Origin: Sphingopyxis sp. GW247-27LB
GTDB lineage: Bacteria > Pseudomonadota > Alphaproteobacteria > Sphingomonadales > Sphingomonadaceae
Length of the DNA: 64,000 nucleotides
Assembly: GCF_002277025.1 (NCBI RefSeq)
Contig: NZ_NIWD01000009.1
Location: 242,841-306,840 of the forward strand
Direction of reading: 5' to 3'
How positions within the stretch are numbered: the stretch's first letter is position 1; each line of letters opens with the position of its first letter. The notes beneath the pieces were generated by a model. It did no database searches. It saw nothing but the letters and a program-made list of their open reading frames with translations, and was not told the DNA's origin. The translations under genes and the position numbers were made by a program. Shown piece by piece: positions 11,582 to 53,999 of this stretch.

Positions 11582-11796
11582 CTCGTCCTCATCTGGTGAA
11601 AATCCGTTCCTGTTGCAGATAGGTCGCGTCCCCCCGCGGCGCAAGCCGCCTGTGCGGCAGATCACTTCCCTTTTGCGAACAAGGGGCTTAAGGTCGGGGC
11701 AACGGGATGGGTCGTACCGCAGCACTATAAAAGACTGCGCCTTGCCGCCAAGCTGCCGCAGGGTGCGATTGCGTATGGCTTTGGGGGATTGCGACG

Positions 11797-17737: not shown

Positions 17738-17916
17738 CGCGGTCGGGTTGTCGTTGAATCGGCCCGATCCATCTGATAATAGGAAAAGAACGCCGCCGGT
17801 CGAGCGGCCCCTCCTTTCCTTGGGTCGAAAACTTCCTGCTGCCGGCATTCCGGCGGTATCGGATGAATTTGGCGCAAGGTCGCAACGACGACCTTGCCGA
17901 CACGCAAGGGGTGGAC

Positions 17917-19740
17917 ATGGGCGACGTGGGGCTTTGGGATATCGATGAAGCGGCACGGCCCGCGCGACTGCGAAAACGCGCCGCGCTGGCCTGCTCGGCC
18001 GGGCTGATCGCCGCCGTGCTGCCCGCGGCCGCCTGGGCGCAGGCGACGCCGCAAATCCCGACGCGCGAGGAAATCCAACGTCCGGCGCTGCCGCCCGCCA
18101 CGCCGCCCGCCGAGCGGATCATCGCCGCCGACGACAGCATCGAACGCGCCCCCTGCCCGCTCGCCGATCCCCAATATGCGAATGTCCGCATCTCCGTGCG
18201 CCAGGTGCAATTCTCGAGCATCGAGGGGATCGACCCCGCCATGCTCGATGCCGCCTGGGCCGACCGGGTCGGCCAGGATCTGCCGATCTCGGTCGTCTGC
18301 GACATCCGCGACCGCGCCGCGACGATGCTGCGGTCGAAGGGCTATCTGGCCGCAGTCCGCGTGCCGCCCCAGACGATCGACGACGGCGTCGTCCGGCTCG
18401 ACATCCTCGCCGCGCGCATGACGCGGATCGAGGTGCGCGGCGACGCCGGCGCCAACGAAGGGCTGCTCCAGCGCTATCTTGCACGGCTCGACGACCAGCC
18501 GGTGTTCAACATCCTCGACGCCGAGCGCTACCTGTTGCTCGCGCGCGATATTCCCGGCATGGACGCGCGGCTGACCCTGCGTCCCGGCGCCAACCCTGGC
18601 GAAGTCGTCGGCGAGGTCACGGTCGTCCGCACCCCGCTGATCTTCGACGCCAGCATCCAGAATTTCGGATCGCACGACGTCGGCCGCTGGGGCGGCATCG
18701 CGCGGGCGCGGGTCGCCGGGCTCACCGGCATGGGCGACCTGACCACCGCAAGCATCTATTCGACCGCCGACCTCGACGAGCAGCAGGTGGTCCAGCTCGC
18801 GCACGAATTCCGCGTCGGCGGCGAAGGGCTGCGGCTCGGGGGCAGCTATACCTATGCGTGGACACGCCCCGACCTTCCCGGCCTCGCGATCAAGTCGAAT
18901 ACCCAGGTCATCAGCCTCTTTGCCTCCTATCCGCTGACCTTGACGCAAGCGCACCGGCTGACGCTCGGCGGCGGGCTCGACTTCATCGACCAGGACATCG
19001 GCCTCGGCGGCGTGCCGCTCAACCGCGACCGGCTGCGCGTCTTCAACCTGCGCGCCGACGCGAACTGGATCGACCCCGCATCGATCGCCGGCCGCAGCGG
19101 CTACAGCCCGTCGGAACCGCACTGGGCCTTCGCGACCTCGCTGGAGGCGCGGCAGGGCGTCAACTTCCTCGGCGCCAGCGACGACTGCGGTCCCGGTGGC
19201 GCGGCCTGCTTCCTGCCCGGCGCGGTCCCGCTGTCGCGCATCGAGGGCAAGCCCGACGCCTTCCTGCTGCGCGCCAATGCGCTCGCCGAATGGCGGCCGG
19301 TCAAGCAATTCACCTTGTCGGCGGCGCCGCGCGCGCAATGGGCGAGCGACCCGCTGCTCGCCTATGAGGAATTTTCGGGCGGCAATTTCACCGTCGGCCG
19401 CGGTTTCGACCCCGGCACGGTGATCGGCGACAGCGGCGCCGCGGTGTCGCTCGAGGCGCGCTACGGCTCGCTCGTCCCCGCCAATACCAGGAGCTTCGCC
19501 GTCCAGCCCTTCGCCTTCTTCGACGCGGCCTGGGTCTGGAACAAGGACAGCGCCTTCAACGGCCTCAATCCCCAGAAACTCTATTCGGCGGGAGGAGGCG
19601 TGCGCGTCACCTATGGCGACCTCGCGCGGCTCGACGTCACTTTCGCCGCCCCGCTCAACCGCCCCGCCCTGCTGGCCAAGCGGCCCGACCCCCGGCTGCT
19701 CGTCACGCTGACGACGCAGTTCGGCGTCCGGGCGCGCTGA
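17917..19740 (+). CDS. TpsB outer-membrane transporter (ShlB/FhaC/HecB family)
   Basis: TpsB proteins translocate a cognate TpsA exoprotein across the outer membrane. From ATG 17917, preceded by AAGGGG at 17906-17911, the product has 607 residues. A signal peptide is followed by ATPQIPTREEIQRPALP, a typical proline-rich FhaC-like helix/linker. A first POTRA-like domain contains RDRAATMLRSKGYLAAVR, and a second lies about 200-270. A 16-strand barrel follows, with GSHDVGRWGGIARARVAG and the conserved NFTVGRGFDPGTVIGDSG loop containing the VRGY-like tip (VGRGF). A longer start at 17863 is open but lacks this Shine-Dalgarno. The tpsA gene begins directly downstream. Confidence 0.93.
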   Translation: MGDVGLWDIDEAARPARLRKRAALACSAGLIAAVLPAAAWAQATPQIPTREEIQRPALPPATPPAERIIAADDSIERAPCPLADPQYANVRISVRQVQFSSIEGIDPAMLDAAWADRVGQDLPISVVCDIRDRAATMLRSKGYLAAVRVPPQTIDDGVVRLDILAARMTRIEVRGDAGANEGLLQRYLARLDDQPVFNILDAERYLLLARDIPGMDARLTLRPGANPGEVVGEVTVVRTPLIFDASIQNFGSHDVGRWGGIARARVAGLTGMGDLTTASIYSTADLDEQQVVQLAHEFRVGGEGLRLGGSYTYAWTRPDLPGLAIKSNTQVISLFASYPLTLTQAHRLTLGGGLDFIDQDIGLGGVPLNRDRLRVFNLRADANWIDPASIAGRSGYSPSEPHWAFATSLEARQGVNFLGASDDCGPGGAACFLPGAVPLSRIEGKPDAFLLRANALAEWRPVKQFTLSAAPRAQWASDPLLAYEEFSGGNFTVGRGFDPGTVIGDSGAAVSLEARYGSLVPANTRSFAVQPFAFFDAAWVWNKDSAFNGLNPQKLYSAGGGVRVTYGDLARLDVTFAAPLNRPALLAKRPDPRLLVTLTTQFGVRAR

Positions 19741-19743: not shown

Positions 19744-22700
19744 ATGACTTTCGCATCGAGGACCCTTGCCATGCGTGCCACCTCCATCCCCTCGCCGATC
19801 CGTCAAGGCAGACGGCGCCTGCTCGGCAGTTGCGCCATCGCCGCGAGCCTCGCCGCGCTGGCCTTCGGTGGCCCCGCGATGGCGCAGGTCGCGGGCACGG
19901 GACAAGTGGTCGGCGGCAATGTGAACGGCGTCATCTCTCCCCCCGCAGCGCACGGCGGGGCCGGGCCAGCCGGTTCGACGCAGGTCGAGGTGACGGGCGC
20001 GCAGACGATCATCAACTGGACCCCGACCGACAACGCTCCCACCGGCGGTGCGATCGACTTCCTTCCCGCGGGGAACACGCTCGAATTCTATGGCCCCGGC
20101 CAATATACGGTGCTCAACCGCTTCACCGACGCGAGCGGCGGGTCGATCGGCCGCCAGGTCGCGCTCAACGGCACGGTCAACAGCTATATCGGCTCGCGCT
20201 TCGCCACCGGCGGCAACGCGCAGGGTGGCAGCATCTGGTTCTACAACGCCGGCGGGGTGCTGATCGGCAGCACCGGGGTCCTCAATGTCGGCAGCCTGGT
20301 GCTGACCGCCAACGACATCGATACCACCGGCGGACTGTTCGGGCCCGGCGGTGAAATCCGCTTTCGCGGCGCCGCGGGAACCTCAACGGTCGAGATCGCG
20401 TCCGGCGCGAGCGTCAACGCCGCCTATCCGGGCAGCGCCCTCGTCGCGGCCAATCCCGGCGGCAGCTATGTCGCGCTTGTCGCGCCGCGCATCGTCCAGA
20501 ACGGCATCGTCACCACCGACGGGTCGACCGCCTATGTCGCCGCCGAACAGGCCGACATTCGCATCAACAGCGGCCTGTTCGACATCAATGTTCTCGTCGG
20601 CGCGCAGGGCGGCACAGTCATCACCCACGGCGGACGCACCGTCGGCCCCGCGCACCAGCAGGGCGATACCGACCAAAACCGCATCTATATGGTCGCGATT
20701 CCCAAGAATAATGCGGTGTCGATGCTGGTGTCCGGCCAGGTCGGCTATGACGAAGCCACCACGGCGCAGACCGAGCCCGACGGGTCGGTGGTGCTGTCGG
20801 CGGGCTATAACGTCAACGGCGGGGCGATCGATACCATCCCGGCGAGCGGCATCGCAGCGAACATCACCGTCCACGATGTCTTCTTCGACAACGACACCGA
20901 AGCGCATGCCAGCGGCGCCTTTGTCGGCCAGCCGCTCGGCCAGATACCATCGGGGCCGCCCACCACCTTTTTGCCCGTCGGTCCCGGCCTGGTCGCCGTC
21001 GACGGCAACGCAACCTTCATCGGCGATGCCAGCGCGAGCCTGACCGTAGGAAACGGCGGCAGCGGGCAGACGATCGGCGCGACCGGCGACCTGACGCTGC
21101 TGTCGGGCGGCGCCAATGGCGCGCCGGGGAGTGCGACGGTCACCATCAATAACGGCGGCACCCTGGTCGCCGGCGGAACCCTGACGGTCTCCGCCGATGG
21201 CGCCTTCGCTGCGGCGACCGGCAACGGCCAGGGCGGCACCGCGAGCTTCACCCAGAATGGGGGCGTGGTCTCAGCGGGCCAGATCCGGCTCAGCGCCAAC
21301 GGCCTCGGCGATAACGATACGGGCGGCGGTGCCGGAACCGGCGGCGCCGCGACGATGAACCTGCTCGGCGGAACGCTGAACGTCGTGAGCCTCGCGGTGC
21401 AGGCCGATGGCATCGGCGGCAGGGGCTCGGACGGCACCGACGACAGCGCTCCCCTGCCAACCCCCGCGAGCGCGGGCGCCGCCGGCCAGGGCGGCACCGC
21501 GGCCATCACCATCGGCGGCACTGCCGCGGTCACCGCCGAAAATATGCAGGCGCACGCCGATGGACAGGGCGGCGACGGCGGCGATTTCAGCGCTTTCGCG
21601 GGCATCGGCGGCGATGCCGGCGCCGGCGCCAGCGGCACCGGCGGCACCGCGACGATCACCGTCGCGGTGCCGACGCTTAGTGTCGGCAGCCTGACCGCCA
21701 GCGCGAATGGCGCGGGCGGCAACGGCGGCAATGTCTTCGCATCGAGCAGCGGCGGCCCGTCGACGGGGTTGGGCACGGGCGGAACCGGCGGCACCGGCCA
21801 AGGCGGGATCGCGACGATCGACACGGGCATCGATATCCCGGCCATCCTCACCAGCAACGCGCGGGGGCTCGGCGGCAATGGCGGGTTCGGCATCGCGGGC
21901 GGCGATGGCGGCAGCGCCATCGGTGGGCTCGCACAATTCATCGTCAATGATTTCGATGCCGGAATCGGCAACATGGTCGTCGATGCTTCGGCCCAGGGTG
22001 GCAATGGTTCGATCTTCTCCGAGGCCGGAGAAGGCGGCGCTGGCGGCAACGCGACAGGCGGCACGGGGCGCATCGAGGCGACCGGCGCGAACGGCGCCGT
22101 GACGCTGAATCAGTCCCAGTTCGTCACCGGGGCGACGGGCGGCACCGGCGGTGACGGCGGCGCGGGCTTCTTTGCCACCTTCCCGGTCGGACCCGCGGGC
22201 GGCCAGGGCGGCGATGGAACCGGCGGCACGCTGGAAATCGCCGCCAGCAACGGCGCCACCGTCACGCTCGGCAGCGATTCGCCAGGTCTTGTACCGTTGA
22301 GCAGCGCGGGAACGGGGGGCACCGGCGGCGCCGGCTCCTACAATGGTTATGTGGAAGGCTCGATCGGCGGCGCGGGCGGCAATGGCGGCGCCGGGGTCGG
22401 CGGCACCGTGCGCCTGCTGGCGAACGGCGGCACGATCACGTCGGGCACCGACACGGTCGCCATCGACGTCGCGGGCACGTCGGGAAGCGGCGGCACCGGC
22501 GGCAACGGCGGCGGAACGGGCAATGACGGCGCTGCAGGGAACCAGCCCGCCACCACGGGCGGCCGCGTGATCATCGAGATCGCGGCCGGAACTTCCCCGG
22601 GACAGATCAATCTCGGCGCCACCAATCTGACCGCCAATGGCGACAACGCCGGCCGCATCGAACTGCGCGCGAACGGCGGCGGTATCGCGATGGCCAGCCT

Positions 22701-25700
22701 CAACGCGCAGGCGTCCGGGCTGGCCGATCCCACCAGCAACGACACCGACACGGCACGGGCGGGGATCTTCCTGGCCGCCAACGGCGGCGCGATCACCACC
22801 GGCGGCGACATGACGCTGACCACGGGCAGTTCGGTGGGTGCCTATGCCGGAACGGATGGGACGATCGGCGCCGGCGGCGCGCTGACGATCACCGCCGGCG
22901 ACCAGATCGACATTCGCCACGACGGCCGCACCGGCACCGCCGCGACCATCGGCGCCGACGGCAATATCACCGCCACCGCGACGAACGGCATAAGCGCCGC
23001 GACGGGCAGCCTGATCGACGCGGGCGGCACGTTATCGCTGACCGCCTCTGCGGGGCCCATCGCGACCGACCGCCTGCACGGCGCCGACATCGTGCTGAGC
23101 AGCAGCGGCGCGACCACCGTCGAGCACGCCGAAGCGGACAATGATTTCATCGCCAACGCGGCGAGCTTCGCGACCGGGCTCAATTCGATCATTACCGGCG
23201 GCGACATCGACATTTCCGCCGTCGGAGCGGTCGACCTCGGCAATTCGACCGCGGGCGGCTATGTTTCGGTCCTTGGCCAGGCGATCGACTTCAACGCGAT
23301 CGACGCCGGGACGACGGTCTCGCTCTATGCCGATGGCGCTGCTGCCAGCGGCATCACGGGCGGCGACATCACCGCGGGGGGCGCCATCAGCCTGACGGGC
23401 CAGGCAATCAACCTGTCGGGCACGGTCCAGACCCCGGCGTCGCTGTCGGCCTTTACGATCGACGGCGATCTCGCGATCGGGCTCGCCGATGTCGCGGGCA
23501 ATATCGGGATATTCGCCAACGGCGACCTGACCGGCACCTATCGCGCCGGCGGCAACGTCAATCTGCGCGCGACTGGAAACGCGACCGTCGAGGCCGACGC
23601 CGCGGGCACCTATCTCAATCCGTCGGGCATTCCGTCGGAAGGCTATGTCTTCGTCGATGCTGCGGGCAATGCGACGCTGACCGACAGCAGCGCGGCGACG
23701 ATGCTGGGCGTCCGATCCGGCGGCGCGACGAGCATCACGGGCGGCAGCGCGGGCGAGGATATCTTCGTCCTCGCCGGAACCACCGCGACCCTCGCCAATC
23801 TGACGGCGGGCGACGACCTCGACGTGACGTCGGGCGGCGCGATGACGATCAGCAACGCCGCGACCCTCGGCACCGGTGCCGACGATCGCCGGGTCGTCTA
23901 CGAACTGGGTCCCTCGTCGGGTTCGGCCCCGCCGGTCATGATGCTGCAAATCCAGTCGAGCACCCCCGACCTGTCGAACGCCACCCTGTCGGCGCCGACC
24001 GCGACGATCAACGCCGCGGACGTGACGGCCTTTTCCAACCTGAGCACGACCGCGGGCGGGACGGTGACCGGAACGGGCCTGCTGCAATCGGGCCTCACGA
24101 CGAACATCAGCGGCAGCGACCTGTCGCTCGAAGCGGTCACCGCGGGGACCGACGCGATCCTGACCGCGACCTCGGGCGGCGTCGTCGCCACCGGCGCGAT
24201 CGCGGCGGGGCACGACGTGACGATCGGCGCGCCCGGCAATATCGCGGTCGCCGAACTCGACGCGGGCGACGACGTCCGGCTCGACGCCGGCGGCACGCTC
24301 AGCGCCGGGGCGGCCTTCGCCTATGGAACCGGCCTCGACAATGAAAGCGACGGCAGCAACGTCGTCGCAACGTCGGGCGGCGCGCTTGGCTTTTCCGGCG
24401 ACATCAGCGCGGCGAACGGCACCACGCTGACCGGCGCCTCGATCGCCGCGCAGGCGATCGATGCCGGCGGCGATATCACCCTCACGACAACCTCGGGCGG
24501 CAGCGGCGCGATCGGCTTCACCGATGCGAGCGCGGGCGGCGATTTCCGGGCCACCGGCCAGTCGATCGCGTTCGCCAGCATCGATGCCAATGCGGTCGAT
24601 CTCATCGCCAATGGCGCCACAGCGGGCGCCGAGGGCATAAGCGGCGGCGCGATCACCGCCGACGACGATATCAACCTCTATGGAAACAGCATCGTCCTGA
24701 CGGGACTGGTGCAGGCCAATGAAGATATGTTCGCGACCGCCTTTGGCGATAGCGTCAGCTTCGGCACGATCAACGCCATCGGCCGCGTGAACATCGACGC
24801 CGACGCCGACATCAACGGCACGATCCGCTCGACGGGCAATGTGACGCTGAATGCGGGCGGCAATGTCACCGGTTCGGTTCGCGCCGACGGCGGCGGCCCC
24901 GATCCCGATGGCTTCCCCTATGAAGGCCGCCTGTTCGTCGATGCGGGCGGCAATGTCACGCTGACCGACAGCGCCGCGGCGAGCCTGTTCGGGGTCCACG
25001 GCGGCGGCAGCGTCACCATCACCGGCGCGACCGCGGGCGAGGACCTGTTCGTCAATGCCGGCTCCACCGCGACGCTGTCGGGCGTCACGGCCGGCGATGA
25101 CCTGACGGTCGAGGCGGCGGGCGCCATCAGCGTCACCAACTCGGGAACCACCGGGGCTGGAGCCGACGAACGCGAAATCTTTTATGCGGCCTGCTGCTCC
25201 AACCCGCTGTTCTTCGTCCTGCAAACGACCGACGTCGATCCCGACGGCTCGAACGTCGCGCTGACCAGCAGCGCCGGCAATATCGTCGCGAGCGACATAT
25301 CCGCGTTCAACGCGCTGACGGCGAACGCGGCGGGCACGCTTTCGGGAACCGGCTTGCTGCAGGCGGGCAGCGATATCCAGCTTATCGCGGCCGGTGCAGT
25401 GAACATCGCCGACGCCGATGCCGGCAACAGTTTGACGATCGACGCCGCGTCGATCGGCTTTGACGACCTGTCGGCGGGCGACAGCGCCGGGCTATTCGCC
25501 ACCGGCGCGGTCGCGGGCGGCACGATCACCGCCGGGGCCGATATCCAGATCAGCGGCGCCAGCATCGCGGTGGCGGGTGTCCAGAGCGACGGATCGCTGA
25601 ACGCGCAGGCGAACGGCGGCGGCGTCGCCATCGCCCAGGCCGATATCGCCGGCTTCGTCGATGTGACGGCCACGGGAACGATCGGCGGCGCCTATACGGC

Positions 25701-28047
25701 CGGCGGCGACATCCGGCTCAGCACCACCGGCTCGATCGACGCCAGCGTCAACGCGCTCGGCGGCTATCTCGACCCGAGCACCGACAATCCCGCGGCGGGC
25801 AACGCCTATCTCGACGCCGGCGGCAATATCGTCCTTGCGGACAGCAGCGCCGCCGACATGCTCGGCATCCGCGCTGGCGGCTCGGCGAGCGTGACAGCGG
25901 CCACCGCAGGCGAGGATGCGCTGGTCATCGCGGGGACGACCGCCAATCTGTCGGAGCTCAGTGCCGGCGACGACATCGACGTCCGCGCGGGCGGTGCGAT
26001 CACCGCGAATGATGTCCGCGCGACGGGCGACGGGCCCGACGGCTTCGCGCTTTTCTATTCGTCCGGATCGGGTTTCACCATCGGGCAGGGCGAAGGCAGC
26101 TCCAGCCTCGACGGGGCCGATATCGACCTCAATTCGTCGAGCGGTGCGATCAATGCGAGCGGGCTGTCGGCAGGCGACGATATCCTGCTGACCGCAGCGA
26201 CGGCGATCGCCGTCAACGGCGGCGGAACGCTGGGGCTCGGCGTCACCGGAGGCGACAGCAGCATCCGCACGCAAAGCGCGACCGCGACGCTCGGCAGCCT
26301 CAGCGCCGCCGACGACGTCGTGGTGAACGCAACCGGCGCGGTCGGCGTCACCGCCCCCCTCCTCGCCGGACGCGACATCGCGATCACTGCCGGCTCGGCC
26401 GATCTCGCGACGCTGATGACCCCCGCGGGCGACCGGGTCGACACGCTCCGCGCCGACGGCAATGTCGGCGTAACGGCGAGCGGCACGATCGATGGCGGCG
26501 CGATCACCGCAGGAGGCAATGTTGCGCTCGACGGGGCGACCGGGGTGACGGTCGACGCGATCGCCAGCCAGGGCGCCACCAGCCTGACGAGCGATGCGGG
26601 CGCGATCATGGTCGGTGCGCTCGCCTCGGGCGGCGCGGTCGACGCAAGCGGCGACAGCGTCGAGATCCGGGGCAGCGGCAGCCTCGTCTTCGCAAACCTT
26701 GTGACCGATGTCGGCGACGCCACGGTGCGGACCGACGGCGATCTGTCGGTCACGAACGGCGACGTCGCGGGGCTCGCCACGCTCGGCAGCGACAACGCGC
26801 GCCTGACGGTGACGGCGCTGACCGCGGGCGGCACCCGGCTCGAAGCCTTCGGCCCGATGGCGCTGACCAATGTCAGCGTCGACGGCGATATTTCGGTCTA
26901 CGGCCAGTCGGCGCTGCAGATCGACGGCGTCGTGACCGGCGAGTCGATCTCGATCGCCTCGACCGATATTTCGATCGGCTCCAATGCGCGCGTGGGCACC
27001 GCCGGCGTCACCGGAAGCCTGGGGATCACGAACAACGATAACAGCCGCCAGACCTTCATCGGCGGCGACGGCACAGGCAATGGCTATAATATCGACGCCG
27101 GCGAGCTGAGCCGCATCTATGGAAGCGACATCGCCATCCACGCGTCAGAGGTCGACACGTCGAACTTCCGCTTTATCGGCAGCGGCCCGCCCGATGTGGT
27201 GATCGACGATTTCACGATGACCGCGGGCGGTTCGACATCGAACCTCGGCGCGAACGGATCGCTGACGATCGACACGTCGGGAACGGCGCGGGTGATCGGC
27301 GACGTCGCGCTGACAGGCATGAGCGACGCCAATACGCTCAACATCCTCGCCGACGACTCGTTCGAAGTGGTTCTGGGCGAAGGTTCGATCCGGCTGTCGG
27401 GCGCCAGCAGCGATGCGCCAGCAGGAATGCTCCGCATCGCTTCGGAGGACGTCATCGTTGCGACCCTCGCGGCGATCGACGATGTCGCCGCCGCGACGAC
27501 GACCGACGCGATCGAGGAGCGGCTGGCGCAGAACGACGGGATCATAAGCGACGACGGCGCCCTGTACGCGGGCGGCATCAACGTCAGCGTCTTCAATGGC
27601 TTCTATGTCCAGAACAGCGGCGCGGGCACCGATTATGGCGAACGCCGCGGGCTGATCTTCGGCGCGGGCGGTCTCACCGTGAACACCGAAGGGTCGGGAA
27701 CACGGCTCGTCATCAACGGTGTCCACCTCGGCCCGCAGGGGCCGGTGACGGGGCTCGACACCATCCCGCTGCTGACCGTCAGCGATTTCGAGGAACGGTC
27801 GACCTTCAACGGCTGTGTGATCGCCAACACCGGCGCCTGCGTCGTGGTCGTGTTCCCGAACGAAAGCGGCTTCCCGGTCCAGGACGTCATCGAAGAGGAA
27901 AGCAACGACGACGATGGCGACGGCACCAGCCTGCCGACGGCGCTGATCACGATGCGCGCGATCGATCCGCTGACCGGTGAGCCGCTGCTCGACGATCCGG
28001 TGACCGGCGCGGGCAACGACGATCTGTGGACGCCCCCCGCCGAATAG
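19744..28047 (+). CDS. TpsA exoprotein with filamentous-haemagglutinin N-terminal domain
   Basis: This 2767-residue protein is the probable substrate of the upstream TpsB. A long signal peptide (basic IRQGRRRLLGSC, then a hydrophobic core to PAMAQV) precedes the TPS domain, about 50-330, with GSIWFYNAGGVLIGSTGVLN, the N(P)xG-type motif region of beta-helical exoproteins. A Gly-rich section, about 430-950, is full of GGTGG and GGNGG. Three homologous beta-helical modules follow (23206-26220). The tail holds Cys2691 and Cys2699 and an acidic EEESNDDDGDG stretch. No autotransporter barrel, VENN motif or toxin domain is seen, so a surface adhesin or matrix fibre fits best. ATG 19771 with GAGGA upstream is an equally good start. 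Confidence 0.9.
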   Translation: MTFASRTLAMRATSIPSPIRQGRRRLLGSCAIAASLAALAFGGPAMAQVAGTGQVVGGNVNGVISPPAAHGGAGPAGSTQVEVTGAQTIINWTPTDNAPTGGAIDFLPAGNTLEFYGPGQYTVLNRFTDASGGSIGRQVALNGTVNSYIGSRFATGGNAQGGSIWFYNAGGVLIGSTGVLNVGSLVLTANDIDTTGGLFGPGGEIRFRGAAGTSTVEIASGASVNAAYPGSALVAANPGGSYVALVAPRIVQNGIVTTDGSTAYVAAEQADIRINSGLFDINVLVGAQGGTVITHGGRTVGPAHQQGDTDQNRIYMVAIPKNNAVSMLVSGQVGYDEATTAQTEPDGSVVLSAGYNVNGGAIDTIPASGIAANITVHDVFFDNDTEAHASGAFVGQPLGQIPSGPPTTFLPVGPGLVAVDGNATFIGDASASLTVGNGGSGQTIGATGDLTLLSGGANGAPGSATVTINNGGTLVAGGTLTVSADGAFAAATGNGQGGTASFTQNGGVVSAGQIRLSANGLGDNDTGGGAGTGGAATMNLLGGTLNVVSLAVQADGIGGRGSDGTDDSAPLPTPASAGAAGQGGTAAITIGGTAAVTAENMQAHADGQGGDGGDFSAFAGIGGDAGAGASGTGGTATITVAVPTLSVGSLTASANGAGGNGGNVFASSSGGPSTGLGTGGTGGTGQGGIATIDTGIDIPAILTSNARGLGGNGGFGIAGGDGGSAIGGLAQFIVNDFDAGIGNMVVDASAQGGNGSIFSEAGEGGAGGNATGGTGRIEATGANGAVTLNQSQFVTGATGGTGGDGGAGFFATFPVGPAGGQGGDGTGGTLEIAASNGATVTLGSDSPGLVPLSSAGTGGTGGAGSYNGYVEGSIGGAGGNGGAGVGGTVRLLANGGTITSGTDTVAIDVAGTSGSGGTGGNGGGTGNDGAAGNQPATTGGRVIIEIAAGTSPGQINLGATNLTANGDNAGRIELRANGGGIAMASLNAQASGLADPTSNDTDTARAGIFLAANGGAITTGGDMTLTTGSSVGAYAGTDGTIGAGGALTITAGDQIDIRHDGRTGTAATIGADGNITATATNGISAATGSLIDAGGTLSLTASAGPIATDRLHGADIVLSSSGATTVEHAEADNDFIANAASFATGLNSIITGGDIDISAVGAVDLGNSTAGGYVSVLGQAIDFNAIDAGTTVSLYADGAAASGITGGDITAGGAISLTGQAINLSGTVQTPASLSAFTIDGDLAIGLADVAGNIGIFANGDLTGTYRAGGNVNLRATGNATVEADAAGTYLNPSGIPSEGYVFVDAAGNATLTDSSAATMLGVRSGGATSITGGSAGEDIFVLAGTTATLANLTAGDDLDVTSGGAMTISNAATLGTGADDRRVVYELGPSSGSAPPVMMLQIQSSTPDLSNATLSAPTATINAADVTAFSNLSTTAGGTVTGTGLLQSGLTTNISGSDLSLEAVTAGTDAILTATSGGVVATGAIAAGHDVTIGAPGNIAVAELDAGDDVRLDAGGTLSAGAAFAYGTGLDNESDGSNVVATSGGALGFSGDISAANGTTLTGASIAAQAIDAGGDITLTTTSGGSGAIGFTDASAGGDFRATGQSIAFASIDANAVDLIANGATAGAEGISGGAITADDDINLYGNSIVLTGLVQANEDMFATAFGDSVSFGTINAIGRVNIDADADINGTIRSTGNVTLNAGGNVTGSVRADGGGPDPDGFPYEGRLFVDAGGNVTLTDSAAASLFGVHGGGSVTITGATAGEDLFVNAGSTATLSGVTAGDDLTVEAAGAISVTNSGTTGAGADEREIFYAACCSNPLFFVLQTTDVDPDGSNVALTSSAGNIVASDISAFNALTANAAGTLSGTGLLQAGSDIQLIAAGAVNIADADAGNSLTIDAASIGFDDLSAGDSAGLFATGAVAGGTITAGADIQISGASIAVAGVQSDGSLNAQANGGGVAIAQADIAGFVDVTATGTIGGAYTAGGDIRLSTTGSIDASVNALGGYLDPSTDNPAAGNAYLDAGGNIVLADSSAADMLGIRAGGSASVTAATAGEDALVIAGTTANLSELSAGDDIDVRAGGAITANDVRATGDGPDGFALFYSSGSGFTIGQGEGSSSLDGADIDLNSSSGAINASGLSAGDDILLTAATAIAVNGGGTLGLGVTGGDSSIRTQSATATLGSLSAADDVVVNATGAVGVTAPLLAGRDIAITAGSADLATLMTPAGDRVDTLRADGNVGVTASGTIDGGAITAGGNVALDGATGVTVDAIASQGATSLTSDAGAIMVGALASGGAVDASGDSVEIRGSGSLVFANLVTDVGDATVRTDGDLSVTNGDVAGLATLGSDNARLTVTALTAGGTRLEAFGPMALTNVSVDGDISVYGQSALQIDGVVTGESISIASTDISIGSNARVGTAGVTGSLGITNNDNSRQTFIGGDGTGNGYNIDAGELSRIYGSDIAIHASEVDTSNFRFIGSGPPDVVIDDFTMTAGGSTSNLGANGSLTIDTSGTARVIGDVALTGMSDANTLNILADDSFEVVLGEGSIRLSGASSDAPAGMLRIASEDVIVATLAAIDDVAAATTTDAIEERLAQNDGIISDDGALYAGGINVSVFNGFYVQNSGAGTDYGERRGLIFGAGGLTVNTEGSGTRLVINGVHLGPQGPVTGLDTIPLLTVSDFEERSTFNGCVIANTGACVVVVFPNESGFPVQDVIEEESNDDDGDGTSLPTALITMRAIDPLTGEPLLDDPVTGAGNDDLWTPPAE
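21070..22570 (+). repeat. Gly-rich coding repeats in tpsA (GGTGG/GGNGG)
   Basis: Within the TpsA frame, codons for Gly-Gly-Thr/Asn-Gly-Gly recur many times, interspersed with short beta-strand-like segments such as ATITVAVPTLSVGSLTASA. At DNA level this gives many ggcggcaccggcggc tracts, prone to slippage and recombination. The frame stays open throughout, so it is a coding repeat and not an intergenic array. Confidence 0.8.
23206..24480 (+). repeat. TpsA module 1 of 3
   Basis: First of three related protein modules. Landmarks are ITGGDITAGGAISLTGQAI, YVFVDAAGNATLTDSSA, GGSAGEDIFVLAGTTA and GTGLLQSG. The same landmarks recur in order in the next two modules, indicating internal duplication. 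Confidence 0.75.
24505..25380 (+). repeat. TpsA module 2 of 3
   Basis: Second module: ISGGAITADDDINLYGNSI, RLFVDAGGNVTLTDSAA, GATAGEDLFVNAGSTA and GTGLLQAG match the landmarks of the first module in order. It also carries an unusual vicinal cysteine pair (YAACCSNP, near 25188-25205) absent from the other copies. Confidence 0.75.
25396..26220 (+). repeat. TpsA module 3 of 3
   Basis: Third module: GGTITAGADIQISGASI, NAYLDAGGNIVLADSSA and ATAGEDALVIAGTTA align with the other copies. It diverges after ITANDVRATGDGPDG, and no GTGLLQ-type end is seen. Confidence 0.7.
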
Positions 28048-30603: not shown

Positions 30604-31452
30604 CTAGACCGGCCGCTCGGCCTTCAGCTCGCGCACCAGCGGCTGCAGCCGCTCGTCATATTTGGCGAGCATCGTGTGCGCGCCGGCATGGTCGTAGAAG
30701 CTGACGAGCTCGCGCCCGTTCCAGTGGTGGAGCGCATAGGCGGGGTCCTCGGCGACGATCATCGGGCGGTCGTCGGGTTGCTCCTCGTCGATCGGGCGGA
30801 GGTCCAGCGAAACCTGCGGCGCGATCGAGGAGCATATGGCAACGGTGCGGCCCTCCCAGGCGACGGTAACGCTGCGGTGGAGGTGGCCGCAGATCAGCCC
30901 GCGCACCTGGGGATGCCGCCGCACGACCGCGGTGAAGCGGTGAACCCAGGGTTCGTCGCTATGCGTGTTCATCCAGTCGATACCGCATTCGACCGGCGGA
31001 TGGTGCATCACGATATAGGTGGGCTTTGCCCTATCCTTCGCCAGTTCGGCCTCGAGCCACGCCGCGCGCGCCTCGCAATAGGCGCCGCCGTGGCGCCCCT
31101 CCTCGAGCGTGTCGATCGTGACCAGCCGCAATTCGGGGAGGTCGATGCTGTACTGGATGAAGCCGTTGCCGTCGTCGAAGCCGGGGAAATAGTCGCGGAA
31201 ATTGTCGCGCAGGTCGTGATTGCCGACACTCGGCCACACAGGAAAGGGACAGCGCGAAAAGGCGGTCGCGAGGCGGCGGTAGCTCGCGGGGTCGCCGCGA
31301 TCGGTGATGTCGCCGGTGGCGAGCAGCAGGTCGGGCCGGTTGGGCCCCTTCATCAGCACGTCGAGCACCTCGTCGAGGCGCTTGCGGTTATATTCGGCCG
31401 GATTGTCCGGATCGAAACCGATATGGATATCGGTGATCTGGGCGATCAGCAT
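30604..31452 (-). CDS. Class III cyclic-nucleotide phosphodiesterase (CpdA-like)
   Basis: The 282-residue metallophosphoesterase has every family motif: QITDIHIGF (DxH), LLATGDITDRG (GD), SVGNHDLRDNF (GNHD), YIVMHHPPVE (H) and LICGHLHRSV (GHxH). The order, spacing and length match E. coli CpdA, which hydrolyses 3',5'-cAMP using two metals. No signal peptide is present, so it is cytoplasmic. It starts 42 bases after the FHA/decaheme cytochrome gene on the same strand, so it may be the last gene of that operon. Since that operon encodes a protein with two cyclic-nucleotide-binding domains, a role in resetting the signal is attractive inference. Other nucleotide phosphates remain possible substrates. 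Confidence 0.88.
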   Translation of the reverse strand: MLIAQITDIHIGFDPDNPAEYNRKRLDEVLDVLMKGPNRPDLLLATGDITDRGDPASYRRLATAFSRCPFPVWPSVGNHDLRDNFRDYFPGFDDGNGFIQYSIDLPELRLVTIDTLEEGRHGGAYCEARAAWLEAELAKDRAKPTYIVMHHPPVECGIDWMNTHSDEPWVHRFTAVVRRHPQVRGLICGHLHRSVTVAWEGRTVAICSSIAPQVSLDLRPIDEEQPDDRPMIVAEDPAYALHHWNGRELVSFYDHAGAHTMLAKYDERLQPLVRELKAERPV

Positions 31453-31494
31453 CTCCGTCCCCTGCTCCGTGCCGGCGCGCCGGCCGGCCGATGA

Positions 31495-33435
31495 TTAGCC
31501 ACCCCCTCGCACCCGACTCAAGGCCGGGGCGCGCCATGTCGCATCGTAAAGGCCCCGGCGTTCGGGCCCTGTGATCTCGCGCACAGCGTAGACGCCGCGC
31601 GGCGGCCGATCTGTGATGGCGGTCACATCCTTGCGGCGCTGGCGCTCGGGCATCCACGGCTTGCCGCCGTCGTCATGATATTCGTGGCACATCGCGCAGG
31701 GCGATGCGGTCGCGGTCCCGACCTTCGCCGTCGCCAGTCGCGCGCCGTCGCCGCCGACATGGCAGGTGCGACACTGGCCGAGCCCCGGCACGAGCAACTC
31801 GCTCGCCAGCTTCGATCCTTTCGCCGCGGTGTGGCAATCGGCGCAGTCGGTTTCCTTGTGCGCCGCATGGTCGAACCAGCCCTTTTCGAGGAAACGCGGC
31901 GTCTGGTGCACCGCCATCACGCGCCAGCCGTTACCCGATCGCGGCGCGAAGATTGTGTGGCAGTCATAGCAGGCGCCCCCCTTCGAGAAGACCGCGCGCA
32001 CCGCATCCTCCGCCCGTCCCGGGCGCACCGCGGCCTCGCGGAAATAGATGTTGTAGACCTGCCCCTCGGCATATTGGCCCGGACGCCGCCGCGCCATGCC
32101 GCCGAGCTGGAGCGGTCGCGTCGGCGGGGTCGAGCGATAATAGGCATAAAGGTCGGCGACGACCTGATCGGGTTCGCCGTGGCGGAGCGTGCGGGTGACC
32201 CCGCCGACGGTCTCGAACGCGAGGCTGTGGCACATCGCGCAGTCGCGCTCCATCGCGACCGGCGCGATGCGGACGCCGTCTGCCTCGGGCCGGTGGCAAT
32301 TCTCGCATTCGAGCTTTTGCCCAAAGCCGAACCGGCCGCGGAAGCTCGCGGCCATGCGCGCGACGCCGCCCCCGGCCTGAAGGTGGAGGTCGTGCGGGAA
32401 TTTGAGGCCGTCATGATCGAGAAGGGGCTTGCCGGGGATCGCACGCATCGGCCTGGCACCCGGCGCGGCGCGGACCAGCGGGCGGAAGCCCGGGTGGCTG
32501 GTCCCGAAATCGCCCGCGTCGGCAACGCTCGCCTTGAACCCTGCGGCCGTCAGCCGCGCCGCCATGCCCGCGTGGCAGTCGGCGCAGAAGGCCTGCGGCG
32601 TCGCGGGCATTGGCCCGGCGCCCTCATGCTCGGTATGGCAGCCGACGCAGCGGCCCTGCGGCTTGTTGAACGCATTCGCGAAGCCCGCCAGTACCTTCTC
32701 CCCCATTCCCGGGGGAGCGCGGGCGGCGAGCAGCATCGCGGTCGGCGCGCCGGCGTGGCTCGCGCTCATCGCCTTGTGCTCGCCGGTGTGGCAGCCGACG
32801 CACGCCTTGTCGGTGACCGCGACGAAGGGTTCGACATGGCAGGCTTGGCAGTCGTTCTTCAGGTTCGCATGCGCGCTCGACAGCGGCCCCGACAGCCAGG
32901 CGCTGTCGGCGTGATAACCCTGCGGCCGTTCGTCGACGCCCTTGTAGCTGTGCCACGCCCAGATCGGCCCGATCAGGAAGGCGAGCAGCACGAACAGCGC
33001 GAAGGTCCAGGCGCCGACGCGCTTGCCGGGCATGGTCCCCGCGAGCGAGAAGGCCTTGGCCTCGTCGACGTCCTTCGACGATTGCGACAGCTCGTCGATC
33101 CGCTCGACGAGCAGGATGATAGCCTCGCCCTCGCGCGCGATCGTCAGCCGGTGGCCGCCGAAACGCAGTTCGGCGCCCGCGGCGCTGTCGATGTCGGCGC
33201 TGTCGAGCGTCCGCCCGTTGAGGTCGAAGCCGAGCCCTTCCTGCGCGGCGATGCGGACATGCCGTCCGTCGGCGCTCGCGATGGTGGCGTGATGCGGGTT
33301 CACGGCGAGATCGGCGATGTGGATCGCGTTGCCGCTGTCGCGCCCGAGCGAGATCGTGTCGCCCGGCAGCGCGAGATCGCGGACGATCTGCTTGCCCGTC
33401 TTGGTCGTCGCGATGCGGCGCAGGATGAAGCTCAT
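31495..33435 (-). CDS. FHA-domain transmembrane decaheme cytochrome c
   Basis: The 646-residue protein has three parts. Residues 1-110 form an FHA-like domain (TISLGRDSGNAIHIADLAVN, then PHHATIASADG). A single membrane helix lies at about 141-161. The rest, predicted periplasmic, holds ten CXXCH haem-attachment motifs at residues 196, 212, 263, 284, 377, 399, 489, 531, 555 and 580. Many extra histidines (for example FPHDLHL, WFDHAAHK) can serve as distal ligands. In the FHA part the usual Ser-Arg before the His is Asn-Pro, so phosphothreonine binding is uncertain. With the membrane cytochrome-b-like and flavin/Fe-S genes directly upstream, it probably accepts electrons at the periplasmic side. 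Confidence 0.88.
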   Translation of the reverse strand: MSFILRRIATTKTGKQIVRDLALPGDTISLGRDSGNAIHIADLAVNPHHATIASADGRHVRIAAQEGLGFDLNGRTLDSADIDSAAGAELRFGGHRLTIAREGEAIILLVERIDELSQSSKDVDEAKAFSLAGTMPGKRVGAWTFALFVLLAFLIGPIWAWHSYKGVDERPQGYHADSAWLSGPLSSAHANLKNDCQACHVEPFVAVTDKACVGCHTGEHKAMSASHAGAPTAMLLAARAPPGMGEKVLAGFANAFNKPQGRCVGCHTEHEGAGPMPATPQAFCADCHAGMAARLTAAGFKASVADAGDFGTSHPGFRPLVRAAPGARPMRAIPGKPLLDHDGLKFPHDLHLQAGGGVARMAASFRGRFGFGQKLECENCHRPEADGVRIAPVAMERDCAMCHSLAFETVGGVTRTLRHGEPDQVVADLYAYYRSTPPTRPLQLGGMARRRPGQYAEGQVYNIYFREAAVRPGRAEDAVRAVFSKGGACYDCHTIFAPRSGNGWRVMAVHQTPRFLEKGWFDHAAHKETDCADCHTAAKGSKLASELLVPGLGQCRTCHVGGDGARLATAKVGTATASPCAMCHEYHDDGGKPWMPERQRRKDVTAITDRPPRGVYAVREITGPERRGLYDATWRAPALSRVRGGG

Positions 33436-33445
33436 CGTCCCCCGC

Positions 33446-34327
33446 CTACCAATAGAAGAAGACGCTGATGATGTGCGCCGACAGCGCCGCGATCAGCGCG
33501 AAGGTCAGCGGCACATGCACATAGAGCCAGATTTCGAGCAGCGCGCGCAGCCGGAGATGCTCGCGCAGCCGCGCCAGCGCCGCCTCCTTCTGCGACAGCA
33601 GCGCGATCACCTTCGCGCGCGCCTCGGCATCGCCGCCCAGGGCCTCGGCCAGCGCCGCGCGCGCCGTCGCGGTCGCGCGATTGGGATAGCGACCGGTCAG
33701 CCGCGCCGCGATCCCGCCGGCGAACGGATCCTGTTCGAGCGAGGCGAGAACCGGCGCCGCCTCGTCCGGCGGCAGCGGCTGCGCGGCGGCGTGGAGCTGG
33801 CGGTCGAAGGCGCGGATCGCCTCGAGCATCTGCATCTGCGTCATCTGCTCGCGGTTGTTCGACAGCGCCTGCGGCAGCAGCGCATAGACGGCGACGCCAT
33901 AGAGGCCCGACAGGATCACCAGCATCATCAGCGCCCAGGCGAGCGTGTGGACGTTCCAGCCGAGCTGGAAGCCGGTGTGCCAGGTGCCGATGACGATCAG
34001 GCTGAGACCCAGATAGACATGCGCCGAGGTCCACGCCTTCAGCGACCAGAAGTCGCTCGTCATCCGGCGTTTGCGATAGCCGAGTGCGGTGAGCCAGAGG
34101 ATCAGCAGCGCGCCGATCGTCCCGAGCGTATAGCCGTACCAGCTGCCGCCATTGGGCCGCGGAGTCACGTCAATCAGCGTATAGGAGACGATGACGAGCA
34201 GGCAGAGCCCGCCCGAGATCTTCGCCCAGCGGAAATTGGCGTGGCGCAGGAAGCCTTCGTGCCGCCGTTCGCGCACGCGCTCGGTCTGGGTCGCCTTCGC
34301 GCGCCGACGGCGAAAGAGCGTCGCCAT
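33446..34327 (-). CDS. Membrane cytochrome-b-like subunit
   Basis: From ATG 34327 the product has 293 residues with about five transmembrane helices (roughly 36-54, 63-83, 100-120, 126-150 and 262-290) and a soluble loop of about 100 residues before the last helix. Histidines inside or beside helices (His103, His117, His127, His271, His285; for example SAHVYLGLSLIVIGTWHTGF and YVHVPLTFALIAALSAHI) are plausible b-haem ligands. Its start overlaps the stop of the flavoprotein gene by one base, and it ends 10 bases before the decaheme cytochrome start, so it is positioned to pass electrons across the membrane. No named family is recognised; haem content is inference. Confidence 0.75.
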   Translation of the reverse strand: MATLFRRRRAKATQTERVRERRHEGFLRHANFRWAKISGGLCLLVIVSYTLIDVTPRPNGGSWYGYTLGTIGALLILWLTALGYRKRRMTSDFWSLKAWTSAHVYLGLSLIVIGTWHTGFQLGWNVHTLAWALMMLVILSGLYGVAVYALLPQALSNNREQMTQMQMLEAIRAFDRQLHAAAQPLPPDEAAPVLASLEQDPFAGGIAARLTGRYPNRATATARAALAEALGGDAEARAKVIALLSQKEAALARLREHLRLRALLEIWLYVHVPLTFALIAALSAHIISVFFYW

Positions 34328-36765
34328 CAGCCGGCGTCCTCTTCGAGCCGCGCGATCGACAGGAATTCTTCGGGCGACACGCGGATCGCGGCGCCCGTGG
34401 GACACGCGCGCACGCAGGCGGGACCGCCCGCCAGTCCCTTGCACATGTCGCATTTGACCGCGATCTTCTTCGGCTTCTTGCCCTCGGGCATGTTCGCCTT
34501 GGTCCATTTGGACGACGGCTCGCCGGGCCCCGGCCCGCGCCCCAGGAGCAGCCAGCTGAGCAGCCCCGGCTTCGGCGGCGGCGCCGCCTCCATGCGGATC
34601 ACCCCATAGGGGCAGTTGCGCATGCAGTTGCCGCAGCCGATGCAGCCTTCTTCCATGAACACTTCGCCGTCGGGGCCGCGGTGGATGACGTTGGGCGGAC
34701 AGTCGGCCATGCAGTGCGGATGCTCGCAGTGGCGGCAGCTCGTCGGGACATGCAGGTGAGCGAAGGTCTTGCCCGCCTCGCGGTCGAGCCGCGAGAGTCC
34801 TTCGTGGCTGTCGGCGCACGCCTTTTCGCAATTGTCGCAGCCGACGCACAGATTCTCGTCGATCAGCAAGGCATCGGTCGCCTCGCCGAGCCCCTCCTTC
34901 ATGATGAAGCTCGCGGTGTCCGAATAAAGATCGACGGCGCTCGAATAGCTCGCCTTGCGCGATTCGATGAAGCTGTTCATCTGCGCGCGCTCGGCGACCG
35001 CCTTCTCGGTCGCCTCGCGCACCTGCGGCCGCGCCGCGAGCATCGCCTGGAAGCCCGCGCCGGTCAGCTTGATCACCTCGCTGCCGACCGCCGCCTTCAC
35101 CGTCGCGTTGCGGGGTGCGCCGCTCAGCACCGCCATCTCGCCGAAGTAGCTGCCGGCGGGCAGGTAGCGGAGGAAGATCGGCTTGCCGCCGATGCTCTTC
35201 TCGACCACCATCGACCCCGACCGGATAACATAGACATCGTCCCCCGCATCGCCCTCTTCGAGCACGGTCTTGCCTGCGGGCACGCGGATCACCTCGGCGC
35301 CATCGACGACGGGCGCGAGATCGTCGACGGTCAGCCCGCCCTTGAAGATCTGGAGCAGCTGGCGTTCGAGCGAGATGCGCTCGATCACGCGCTTCGCGCC
35401 CGGTACCGCGCCCATCAGCTTGATCGCGGCGGTGCGCGACATCTCGACGAAGATGCTGTCCTCGCCGGCGCGGATCGTCGCGCCGCGCTTGCGGCCCGAG
35501 ATCAGCCCGACCTCGCCGAAGATCGAACCCTGCTCGATCGGCACGGTCACCCCCGGCGCGACCTCGACCAGCGCGTGGCCGTCGGCGATCGCGAACAGCG
35601 ACGATCCGGGCTCGTCCTTCTCGAACACCACCTCGCCTTGTCGGTAGAAGGCGACCTTCGAATCGAGCATGAATTCGCGCATCTGCAGCGGCGACACGTC
35701 GGCGAAGATGCGCACGCGCGTCCGCAGGAAGTCGAGCCATTCGCTGACCGATTTCGGCCCCGGCAAATCGGCGAAGATCGCCGCCAGATCCTTTTCGTCG
35801 GCGGGAGTCAGCGCGGCGTTGCCGTTCAGGAACTCGACGACGTCATAGCCCTGGTTCATGCAATGCTTGATCAGCGGATAGCCTGCGAGCGCGCCGATGA
35901 CATAGATGCCCGGCACCACCGTCTCGAAGGTCGGCGACAGCTTCGGAAAGGCCTCGCGGTCGGGACCGGTGAATTCGATCCCCATCGATTCGACGAAGGC
36001 GCGTGGCGCGACCGAGCCGAGGCGCGCGACGATGACGTCGCACTGAATCCTCTCGTCGCCGGTCGGCGTCTCGAGCGTCAGCCAGCCCTCCTCGACCAGC
36101 TTGGGCTGCGTTTCGGTGCGGACGCTGATCGCGCCATTCTCGCCCGCCTCCATCAGGTCGGAGACATTCTTCGCCTTGGCGCGCGCGAAATCCTTCGAGC
36201 GATTGAGGATGGTCACCCGGTTCTCGAGCGCCTCCTCGGCGACGCCGAGCGCATTCTCGATCCCCGCGTCGCCCGATCCGACGACGGTGATATGCCGGTC
36301 CTTGAAATCCTCGGGATCGTCGACCTGATAGATGATGTGCGGCAGGTCGTTGCCGGGGCAGCGCATCCGGTTCGGATTGCCCTGCGTCCCGATCGCGAGC
36401 ACGATCGTCTCGGCGACGATCGTATCGCCCTTCGCGGTCTTGATCTGGAATGCGCCCTTCGCGCCCGTCACTTCGACGACCTCGGCGCGATAGAGGATGT
36501 TCACCTTGTTCGCCGCGGCATCCTCCTCCCAGATGCCCAGGATCGCCTCGCGCGAGCCTTCATCGAAGCGGCAGTCGGAACGCAGGTCGAGGCGAGCGGG
36601 CGTCGCCATGACATGCTTGCCCTTCTGATATTTGAAGATGGTGTCAGAGAGGTGATCGGTCTTTTCGAGGAGCACATGGCTCAATCCGAGCTGCGCCGCG
36701 CGCGACGCGGCGCTGAGACCCGCCGGCCCCGACCCGATGATCGCGACCTTGACCGCTTCGCTCAT
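34327..36765 (-). CDS. Flavoprotein with two cNMP-binding domains and four 4Fe-4S clusters
   Basis: This 812-residue cytoplasmic fusion begins with a thioredoxin-reductase/YpdA-like part (1-330) having FAD (GSGPAG, 11-16) and NAD(P) (GSGDAG, 163-168) motifs. Two cyclic-nucleotide-binding domains follow (about 355-455 and 480-580), with cassettes FGEVGLISGRKRGATIRA (416-433) and FGEMAVLSGAPRNATVKA (541-558); the second keeps the phosphate-binding Arg. A ferredoxin-type end has four Cys quartets (640/643/646/650, 677/680/685/689, 708/711/714/718, 772/775/784/788). No redox-active CxxC of thioredoxin reductase is seen. Electrons likely pass from NAD(P)H via FAD and Fe-S to the membrane subunit, gated by cAMP or cGMP; the gating is inference. 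Confidence 0.92.
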   Translation of the reverse strand: MSEAVKVAIIGSGPAGLSAASRAAQLGLSHVLLEKTDHLSDTIFKYQKGKHVMATPARLDLRSDCRFDEGSREAILGIWEEDAAANKVNILYRAEVVEVTGAKGAFQIKTAKGDTIVAETIVLAIGTQGNPNRMRCPGNDLPHIIYQVDDPEDFKDRHITVVGSGDAGIENALGVAEEALENRVTILNRSKDFARAKAKNVSDLMEAGENGAISVRTETQPKLVEEGWLTLETPTGDERIQCDVIVARLGSVAPRAFVESMGIEFTGPDREAFPKLSPTFETVVPGIYVIGALAGYPLIKHCMNQGYDVVEFLNGNAALTPADEKDLAAIFADLPGPKSVSEWLDFLRTRVRIFADVSPLQMREFMLDSKVAFYRQGEVVFEKDEPGSSLFAIADGHALVEVAPGVTVPIEQGSIFGEVGLISGRKRGATIRAGEDSIFVEMSRTAAIKLMGAVPGAKRVIERISLERQLLQIFKGGLTVDDLAPVVDGAEVIRVPAGKTVLEEGDAGDDVYVIRSGSMVVEKSIGGKPIFLRYLPAGSYFGEMAVLSGAPRNATVKAAVGSEVIKLTGAGFQAMLAARPQVREATEKAVAERAQMNSFIESRKASYSSAVDLYSDTASFIMKEGLGEATDALLIDENLCVGCDNCEKACADSHEGLSRLDREAGKTFAHLHVPTSCRHCEHPHCMADCPPNVIHRGPDGEVFMEEGCIGCGNCMRNCPYGVIRMEAAPPPKPGLLSWLLLGRGPGPGEPSSKWTKANMPEGKKPKKIAVKCDMCKGLAGGPACVRACPTGAAIRVSPEEFLSIARLEEDAG

Positions 36766-51549: not shown

Positions 51550-51562
51550 GCCCTATCCTACC

Positions 51563-51634
51563 CCGTTCGCGTCGAGCGAAGTCGAGACGCCCCTCGATCC
51601 AGCATGGCGTCTCGACTTCGCTCGACGCGAACGG
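51563..51634. repeat. 28-bp perfect inverted repeat between gspN and gspO
   Basis: The arms 51563-51590 and 51607-51634 are perfect reverse complements over 28 bp (core gtcgagcgaagtcgagac and its complement), with a 16-base loop. The transcript would form a very stable hairpin between gspN and gspO. Such elements are common intergenic repeats in sphingomonads, from memory. It could attenuate or insulate gspO. Confidence 0.9.
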
Positions 51635-51651
51635 AAGAAAGAAGGCATGTC

Positions 51652-53998: not shown

Positions 53999-53999
53999 C

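Follow-up and report, generated by a model that had tools for sequence, protein, structure and literature searches.

Background

Most of the electron-export conduits known to date come from metal-reducing and iron-oxidising bacteria, and their regulation is described as transcriptional. Among them, the porin-cytochrome conduits (Mtr/Mto, PCC, PCC3 and Uet) combine an entry module in the inner membrane with multihaem cytochromes that flank a proposed outer-membrane barrel on either side; CymA and CbcL, which are inner modules of known conduits, are quinol oxidases. Here, I describe a locus that appears to share this plan, namely a cluster of four genes from Sphingopyxis sp. GW247-27LB (NCBI RefSeq assembly GCF_002277025.1, contig NZ_NIWD01000009.1). 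The cluster lies in a window, i.e. the whole stretch of DNA that was analysed, of 64,000 nucleotides (positions 242,841 to 306,840 of the forward strand), to which the coordinates given below refer. Together, the four gene products are probably the inner-membrane part of a pathway that exports electrons across two membranes, and in which the input from NAD(P)H would be gated by locally made cyclic AMP (cAMP). By function, such a system would be a conduit of the porin-cytochrome type, and a direct cAMP gate, if real, would go beyond it.

The differences from Mtr/Mto, PCC, PCC3 and Uet concern both ends of the putative conduit. At the outer end, the cytochrome has LVIVD repeats and no Pfam or NCBIfam model matches the porin-like protein; at the inner end, a quinol oxidase is replaced by an NAD(P)H flavoprotein that includes cyclic-nucleotide domains. 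As for the regulatory part, a precedent for a CHASE2 cyclase tied to an outer-membrane beta-barrel comes from Sinorhizobium meliloti, in which the beta-barrel NsrA is reported to feed the CHASE2 cyclases CyaD1, CyaD2 and CyaK, their output being the transcription factor Clr (PMC13001267); unlike in S. meliloti, the proposed effector in the present case is the electron-input enzyme itself.

The candidate conduit is found in 118 of 298 sampled genomes of a single family, and its inner module also in other classes. I take the family, from its named members, to be the sphingomonads, which are aerobic for the most part. For these organisms the conduit would be a predicted route to respire on solids or humic matter and, should electron flow respond to the cyclic-nucleotide sites, a wire under allosteric control; if true, this would amount to a new way of switching respiration on and off. 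A literature search found no description of the system, but it covered open-licence papers only and does not show absence from print.

The four-gene cluster and its conservation

A preliminary description of this DNA had proposed four same-strand genes with overlaps or short gaps. All of them are found on the minus strand, in the order 1-2-3-4:

34327..36765 (reads 36765 to 34327), minus strand: gene 1, flavoprotein of 812 amino acids, the putative electron-input protein
33446..34327 (reads 34327 to 33446), minus strand: gene 2, predicted inner-membrane protein of 293 amino acids, with a 1-nucleotide overlap with gene 1
31495..33435 (reads 33435 to 31495), minus strand: gene 3, FHA-transmembrane-decaheme cytochrome of 646 amino acids, after a gap of 10 nucleotides from gene 2
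30604..31452 (reads 31452 to 30604), minus strand: gene 4, putative phosphodiesterase of 282 amino acids, after a gap of 42 nucleotides from gene 3

A scan of 84,980 species genomes with gene 1 (E <= 1e-3) returned at least 549 stretches encoding a relative, remote or partial ones possibly included; the best 80 of them are hereafter the named loci. The nearest named match among the matches listed is gene 1 of Sphingopyxis flava (94%). In 71 of the 80 named loci all four genes stand on a single strand in the order 1-2-3-4, and the expectation that gene order be conserved in relatives is thus borne out. Six of the other nine loci have genes 1-2-3 and three have fewer; in seven of these nine the contig breaks off no more than about 3.1 kb past gene 1. 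The remaining two, L105 and L132, have genes 1-3 and enough room, but a search at E <= 1e-10 found no gene 4 in them. A chance cluster is ruled out by the conserved order, together with the co-occurrence across family genomes reported below.

Twenty-one stretches were fetched. In 14 of them gene 4 is the next gene after gene 3, and in one (L049) it lies 4.8 kb downstream; given also the six stretches, listed further below, in which it was not found, I regard genes 1-3 as the core and gene 4 as a common partner. In two distant genomes (L052 and L055) genes 1 and 2 form one polypeptide of 1118-1123 amino acids, which points to a physical linkage of their products.

Motif conservation was followed in alignments of 13 members each of genes 1-3, which are 24% to 70% identical to the window proteins. 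Gene 1 was described beforehand as a flavoprotein fused to two cyclic-nucleotide-binding domains and four 4Fe-4S sites, and its Pfam domains (Pyr_redox_2, two cNMP_binding stretches and Fer4) and invariant residues agree with that. An FAD/NAD(P)H oxidoreductase occupies residues 1 to about 315, the two cyclic-nucleotide-binding domains residues 350-600 approximately, and the four 4Fe-4S sites use cysteines between 640 and 788; the tandem domains hence sit between the FAD and the Fe-S parts of the polypeptide. All 13 members are identical at the FAD and NAD(P) glycines, at the 16 Fe-S cysteines, which fall into four groups, and at E418/R427 and E543/R552 of the two phosphate-binding cassettes; in such cassettes, Glu is the ribose-binding and Arg the phosphate-binding residue.

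The flavoprotein part has the two-Rossmann FAD/NAD(P) fold of the bacillithiol disulfide reductase YpdA and of the TrxR-like ferredoxin-NADP reductases. The best NCBIfam model is TIGR04018 (YpdA), at 132.5 bits versus a cut-off of 339.9, which is not reached, and the PDB sequence matches are to ferredoxin-NADP reductases. Unlike YpdA and TrxR-like enzymes, gene 1 is fused to the two cyclic-nucleotide domains and the four 4Fe-4S sites and lacks a redox-active CxxC: before residue 640 there are only Cys 65, 136, 242 and 302, none of them invariant. A role as disulfide or thioredoxin reductase was discarded on account of this lack. Its four 4Fe-4S groups are similar to those of the four-cluster Fe-S subunits of the HycB, DmsB and NrfC types, HycB-type chains matching over residues 634-801; in contrast to these separate subunits, the Fe-S part of gene 1 resides within the dehydrogenase polypeptide.

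Gene 2, earlier called a five-helix His-rich membrane protein, has nine histidines. Its five hydrophobic segments appear at the lax threshold of a simple hydropathy scan, whereas the strict one yields four. Five histidines (H103, H117, H127, H271 and H285) are invariant, in 13 of 13 members and in 40 of 40 of a second set, and four of them form the pairs H103-x13-H117 and H271-x13-H285, each 14 residues apart. Two His pairs about 14 residues apart on two helices are the classical pattern of two b haems stacked across the membrane. The window protein scores 18.3 bits against the cytochrome b561 model (PF01292), short of the cut-off of 30.1, and 7 of 13 members match at E <= 0.01. Taken alone in a PDB sequence search, gene 2 gave no useful match, and its profile retrieved from the PDB six chains at E 0.03-0.16, five of which are ATP synthase subunit b. 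From its histidines, gene 2 is likely a diheme cytochrome b.

The FHA-transmembrane-decaheme architecture put forward for gene 3 stands, with one transmembrane segment (residues 137-164), ten CXXCH motifs and an FHA fold that emerges from the family; the FHA part is assigned to the cytoplasm and the decaheme part to the periplasm. In the window protein alone the FHA domain reaches 16.7 bits versus a cut-off of 20.7; 12 of 13 aligned members match at E <= 0.01, and the family profile finds GarA and other FHA chains (best E 2.7e-6). All ten haem motifs are kept in 13 of 13 members, one of the ten being CX4CH in L052 and L055; in one further locus (L042, genome G032, 10914-12848) gene 3 has nine CXXCH and not ten. 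Nine further histidines are kept in at least 12 of the 13, and a tenth in 12, the window protein having its His two residues earlier, which suggests about one distal ligand per haem. Partial similarity to the MtrC/MtrF domain II/IV model, seen in 9 of 13 members with E values of 0.01 or lower (best 1.1e-9; window protein 18.7 bits versus a cut-off of 30), links gene 3 to the porin-cytochrome conduits. A PDB sequence search with gene 3 alone gave no useful match. Of the two residues by which FHA domains usually contact phosphothreonine, the Arg (R32) is present in 13 of 13 members, and the Ser, at the column of N46, in one. A phosphothreonine reader was rejected since the contact Ser is missing in 12 of 13 members; for the same reason the FHA domain is more likely a docking domain than a phospho-reader.

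Gene 4 is a calcineurin-like protein (Pfam Metallophos) of the CpdA/Rv0805/SpdA kind, which it matches over most of its length, and it shares all the metal ligands of these enzymes; D8, H10, D48, N78, H79, H150, H190 and H192 are present in 8 of 8 aligned members. Unlike them, it stays below both NCBIfam cut-offs, for SpdA, the best match (137 of 400 bits), and for CpdA (80.8 of 225), and it is genetically tied to an electron-transfer complex. The suggestion of a CpdA-like phosphodiesterase that ends a cAMP signal is therefore retained as to the class III metal-ligand set and weakened as to CpdA itself, for SpdA scores higher.

A co-occurring set of putative outer-membrane proteins

All or part of a second gene set lies beside genes 1-3 in 9 of the 21 stretches, including that of Sphingobium herbicidovorans. 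It comprises a tetraheme cytochrome (C554 type), an HbpS-like protein (PF03928, haem-degrading), a porin-like protein of about 612 amino acids, whose gene adjoins that of a multihaem cytochrome and which would be a beta-barrel, and a decaheme-LVIVD cytochrome of about 1320-1430 amino acids, here the outer cytochrome. The window's own genome has a complete set on the same contig, about 426 kb from the cluster, with the outer cytochrome at L059:13003-17289; its proteins have signal peptides, the HbpS-like protein a lipobox and the porin-like protein a C-terminal aromatic residue, which would fit a barrel (all by eye).

The outer cytochrome is found within 10 kb of the cluster in 40 of the 80 named loci. 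None of these 40 belongs to the 15 loci nearest to the window; all come from the remaining 65, which include short contigs. Of the 298 family genomes, 118 have gene 3, and every one of them also has the outer cytochrome, which occurs in 119 altogether (Fisher 3e-84, not corrected for phylogeny); the only outer cytochrome among the 180 genomes without gene 3 is that of G472, a genome 67% complete. In a sample of 398 genomes of the phylum, gene 3 (E <= 1e-10) occurs in 15 and the outer cytochrome (E <= 1e-30) in 11, all within those 15, as compared with 0 of 383 without gene 3 (Fisher 1.6e-18). Within the genus, genomes G014 and G016 have neither gene 3 nor the outer cytochrome, and G030 (73% complete) has the outer cytochrome only. 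The linkage of the inner and outer sets is hence often broken, yet their co-occurrence is almost perfect.

These data enlarge the preliminary description. The cluster coordinates hold, and the functional unit appears larger than they indicate, the four genes being the inner half of a wider, broadly conserved system. Likewise, a path of electrons from NAD(P)H through FAD and Fe-S to periplasmic haems fits the conserved cofactor sites and the linkage of genes 1 and 2; the periplasm is most likely not its endpoint, because a second, proposed outer-membrane cytochrome set belongs to the conduit.

A conserved cyclase partner

The plus strand of the window encodes a conserved partner of the conduit genes, which from its residues is the probable cAMP source:

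14896..16983, plus strand: CHASE2 class III cyclase with adenylate-type residues

Its metal Asp pair, adenine-type Lys and Thr, and transition-state Asn and Arg are all present, as they are in the five closest relatives. Among 14 aligned cyclases, the Lys is found in 14, the Thr in 12 (Ser in L098 and L116) and the Asn in 13 (not in L049).

The 35 genomes chosen to assess the distribution of the cyclase consist of all 19 genomes of the phylum sample that belong to the family, the three from outside the family that have both modules, eight further family genomes with gene 3, and five more Sphingopyxis, of which three have gene 3 and two lack it. Every one of the 22 genomes with gene 3 has the cyclase at E <= 1e-20, as against 0 of the 13 without; in 18 of the 22, no more than 25 kb separate a cyclase match from gene 3 or the outer cytochrome, the exceptions being G002, G186, G405 and G503. 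In three genomes (G409, G657 and G693; loci L159, L160 and L165), the tetraheme gene is immediately preceded, on its own strand, by the cyclase and the exported protein that follows it. Diverged but complete CHASE2 cyclases also lie near the set in G359, of the same family, and in G432 and G424, outside it.

Proposed mechanism and alternatives

In the export pathway proposed here, NAD(P)H would reduce the FAD of gene 1, from which electrons would pass through the four 4Fe-4S clusters to the two b haems of gene 2 and on to the periplasmic part of gene 3 with its ten c haems; the separately encoded tetraheme cytochrome would carry them on to the porin-like protein with the decaheme-LVIVD cytochrome at the outer membrane, and the latter would deliver them to an acceptor outside the cell. 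The cAMP would come from the CHASE2 cyclase, the sensor domain of which is expected to face the periplasm, and the binding of cAMP to the tandem domains would open or close the FAD-to-Fe-S step: as these domains sit between the two parts, nucleotide binding could shift one relative to the other. Gene 4 would probably remove the cAMP; it is the weakest link of the scheme, its best match being SpdA, and cAMP is its presumed substrate. Gating by cAMP or cGMP had been proposed beforehand; both cassettes are intact in 13 of 13 members and a probable cAMP source lies in the conserved neighbourhood, while the gate itself is a prediction.

Taken to its full extent, the scheme would be a two-membrane respiratory wire switched directly by a second messenger, in which cAMP from a surface-sensing cyclase binds protein kinase A-like tandem domains in the electron-input enzyme and the phosphodiesterase resets the switch; this I put forward tentatively, as a possibility worth stating. 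If the cyclase senses the state of the outer-membrane conduit, surface contact and current may even form a closed loop.

Several observations weigh against the proposed pathway. In 4 of the 22 genomes more than 30 kb lie between the cyclase and either module, the match in G186 is weak, and the cyclase that adjoins the conduit in G317 (L049) lacks the catalytic Asn, so that one relative may be inactive. An unrelated accessory control gene from the window is itself found in 18 of the 22 genomes with gene 3 and 4 of the 13 without, which shows the 35-genome sample to be lineage-biased; the association of the cyclase exceeds that of the control gene. In six of the 21 stretches, all of them distant (L050-L055), no gene 4 was found next to gene 3, and the enzyme may act on 2',3'-cyclic nucleotides, the SpdA model being named 2',3'-cyclic nucleotide phosphodiesterase in NCBIfam. 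As for the outer set, no outer cytochrome was found at E <= 1e-30 in four distant genomes with gene 3 (G060, G093, G212 and G213), of which G213 retains the HbpS-like gene and the porin-like one until close to the end of its contig. The porin-like protein also has no sequence relative in the PDB, a profile search included, and its beta-strand alternation in a crude scan is 0.086, versus 0.068 +/- 0.023 when shuffled.

The same parts might work in reverse, the outer cytochrome accepting electrons from an external donor, Fe(II) or another, which genes 3, 2 and 1 would pass inward to NAD(P)+ or the quinone pool. Multihaem wires are reversible in principle. A Gallionellaceae survey of 87 iron-oxidiser genomes reports, in 27 of them, a cluster with a 'Forkhead-associated protein' of ten haems, listed under 'Other' and with no role given, the word forkhead being absent from the rest of its main text (PMC10734462, Table 1). 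By its description the protein may correspond to gene 3; were these FHA-decaheme proteins the same, they would gain a candidate partner set. Uptake is distinctly unlikely, for NAD(P)+ reduction from donors near 0 mV needs extra energy, no coupling subunit is seen in the cluster, and gene 1, being of the NAD(P)H-dehydrogenase type, is a natural input.

Export might, on the other hand, proceed ungated, the cyclic-nucleotide domains serving structure or assembly only and the cyclase controlling other genes via a CRP-type regulator. Folds of the cyclic-nucleotide type can lose ligand binding, and the cyclase locus also has CHAT, TpsB and TpsA genes, which may be its real partners; the identity of the cassette Glu and Arg in both domains of all 13 members, and a cyclase that co-occurs with and adjoins electron-transfer genes, render this unlikely. 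Very improbable is a role outside respiration, in which the outer cytochrome and the HbpS-like lipoprotein would reduce or process haem, selenite/tellurite or metal ions at the surface: the haem-degrading HbpS-like domain beside the porin-like gene would suit it, as would the outer cytochrome's match to ExtM, of a selenite/tellurite reduction operon, but that match is one short haem stretch (51 residues, 64 of 800 bits) that misses the cut-off; no search aimed at haem transporters was made.

Neighbouring genes and further observations

Around the cyclase, the plus strand of the window reads CHAT - CHASE2 cyclase - exported protein - TpsB - TpsA - CysS:

11821..14892, plus strand: CHAT-domain protein, directly upstream of the cyclase and in the same position in G547, G471 and L165; its association is weaker than that of the cyclase
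16970..17737, plus strand: exported protein of 255 amino acids, directly after the cyclase, no Pfam or NCBIfam match
17863..19740, plus strand: TpsB transporter (ShlB/FhaC type), between the cyclase and TpsA
19771..28047, plus strand: TpsA-like repeat exoprotein of 2758 amino acids, in the same position in G547 and G471, loosely associated

In G547 and G471 this series runs on into tetraheme - HbpS - porin - outer cytochrome and then into a converging 4-3-2-1, so that the whole locus is in one piece of about 32 kb (G547) or about 36 kb (G471, with about 4.7 kb of other sequence after CysS). In the window the order is identical except that a single dehydrogenase gene takes the place of the four outer genes. 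Homologues of the exported protein follow the cyclase in five other genomes (32-43% identity); in L164 a weak homologue precedes it. In the 35 genomes, CHAT is found in 19 of 22 with gene 3 versus 2 of 13 without, and TpsB in 18 versus 2; these associations do not clearly exceed that of the control gene, and neither CHAT nor the TpsB/TpsA pair was accepted as a firm member, their scores being close to that control. They are kept as loosely associated because of their fixed position. The TpsA-like exoprotein is a probable surface filament.

Two further genes recur near the conduit. One encodes a glutamate dehydrogenase of the ELFV family (L059:6067-7587; also L046, L048, L049 and L050; 17 of the 80 named loci); in G317 and G359, acetolactate-synthase-like and aldehyde-dehydrogenase-like genes are also nearby (by eye), and these enzymes are possibly suppliers of NAD(P)H. 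The other encodes a TPR protein resembling CcmH/NrfG haem-lyase subunits (L059:5141-6232), seen in 61 of the 80 named loci; it is divergent from gene 1 in most of them, and in the window's genome it accompanies the outer-membrane set instead.

Homologues of genes 1 and 3 are carried by 12 of 72,556 plasmid records, all of them large Sphingobium plasmids, namely pMSHV of Sphingobium herbicidovorans (NZ_CP020539.1) and 11 others, and one of the 12 is predicted to be conjugative; the system can therefore ride on a replicon. A plasmid origin of the window cluster was rejected, as its contig bears housekeeping genes such as CysS and is taken as chromosomal. Elsewhere in the window, positions 50758-62811 hold what looks, by eye and from N-terminal sequences, like a type II secretion operon.

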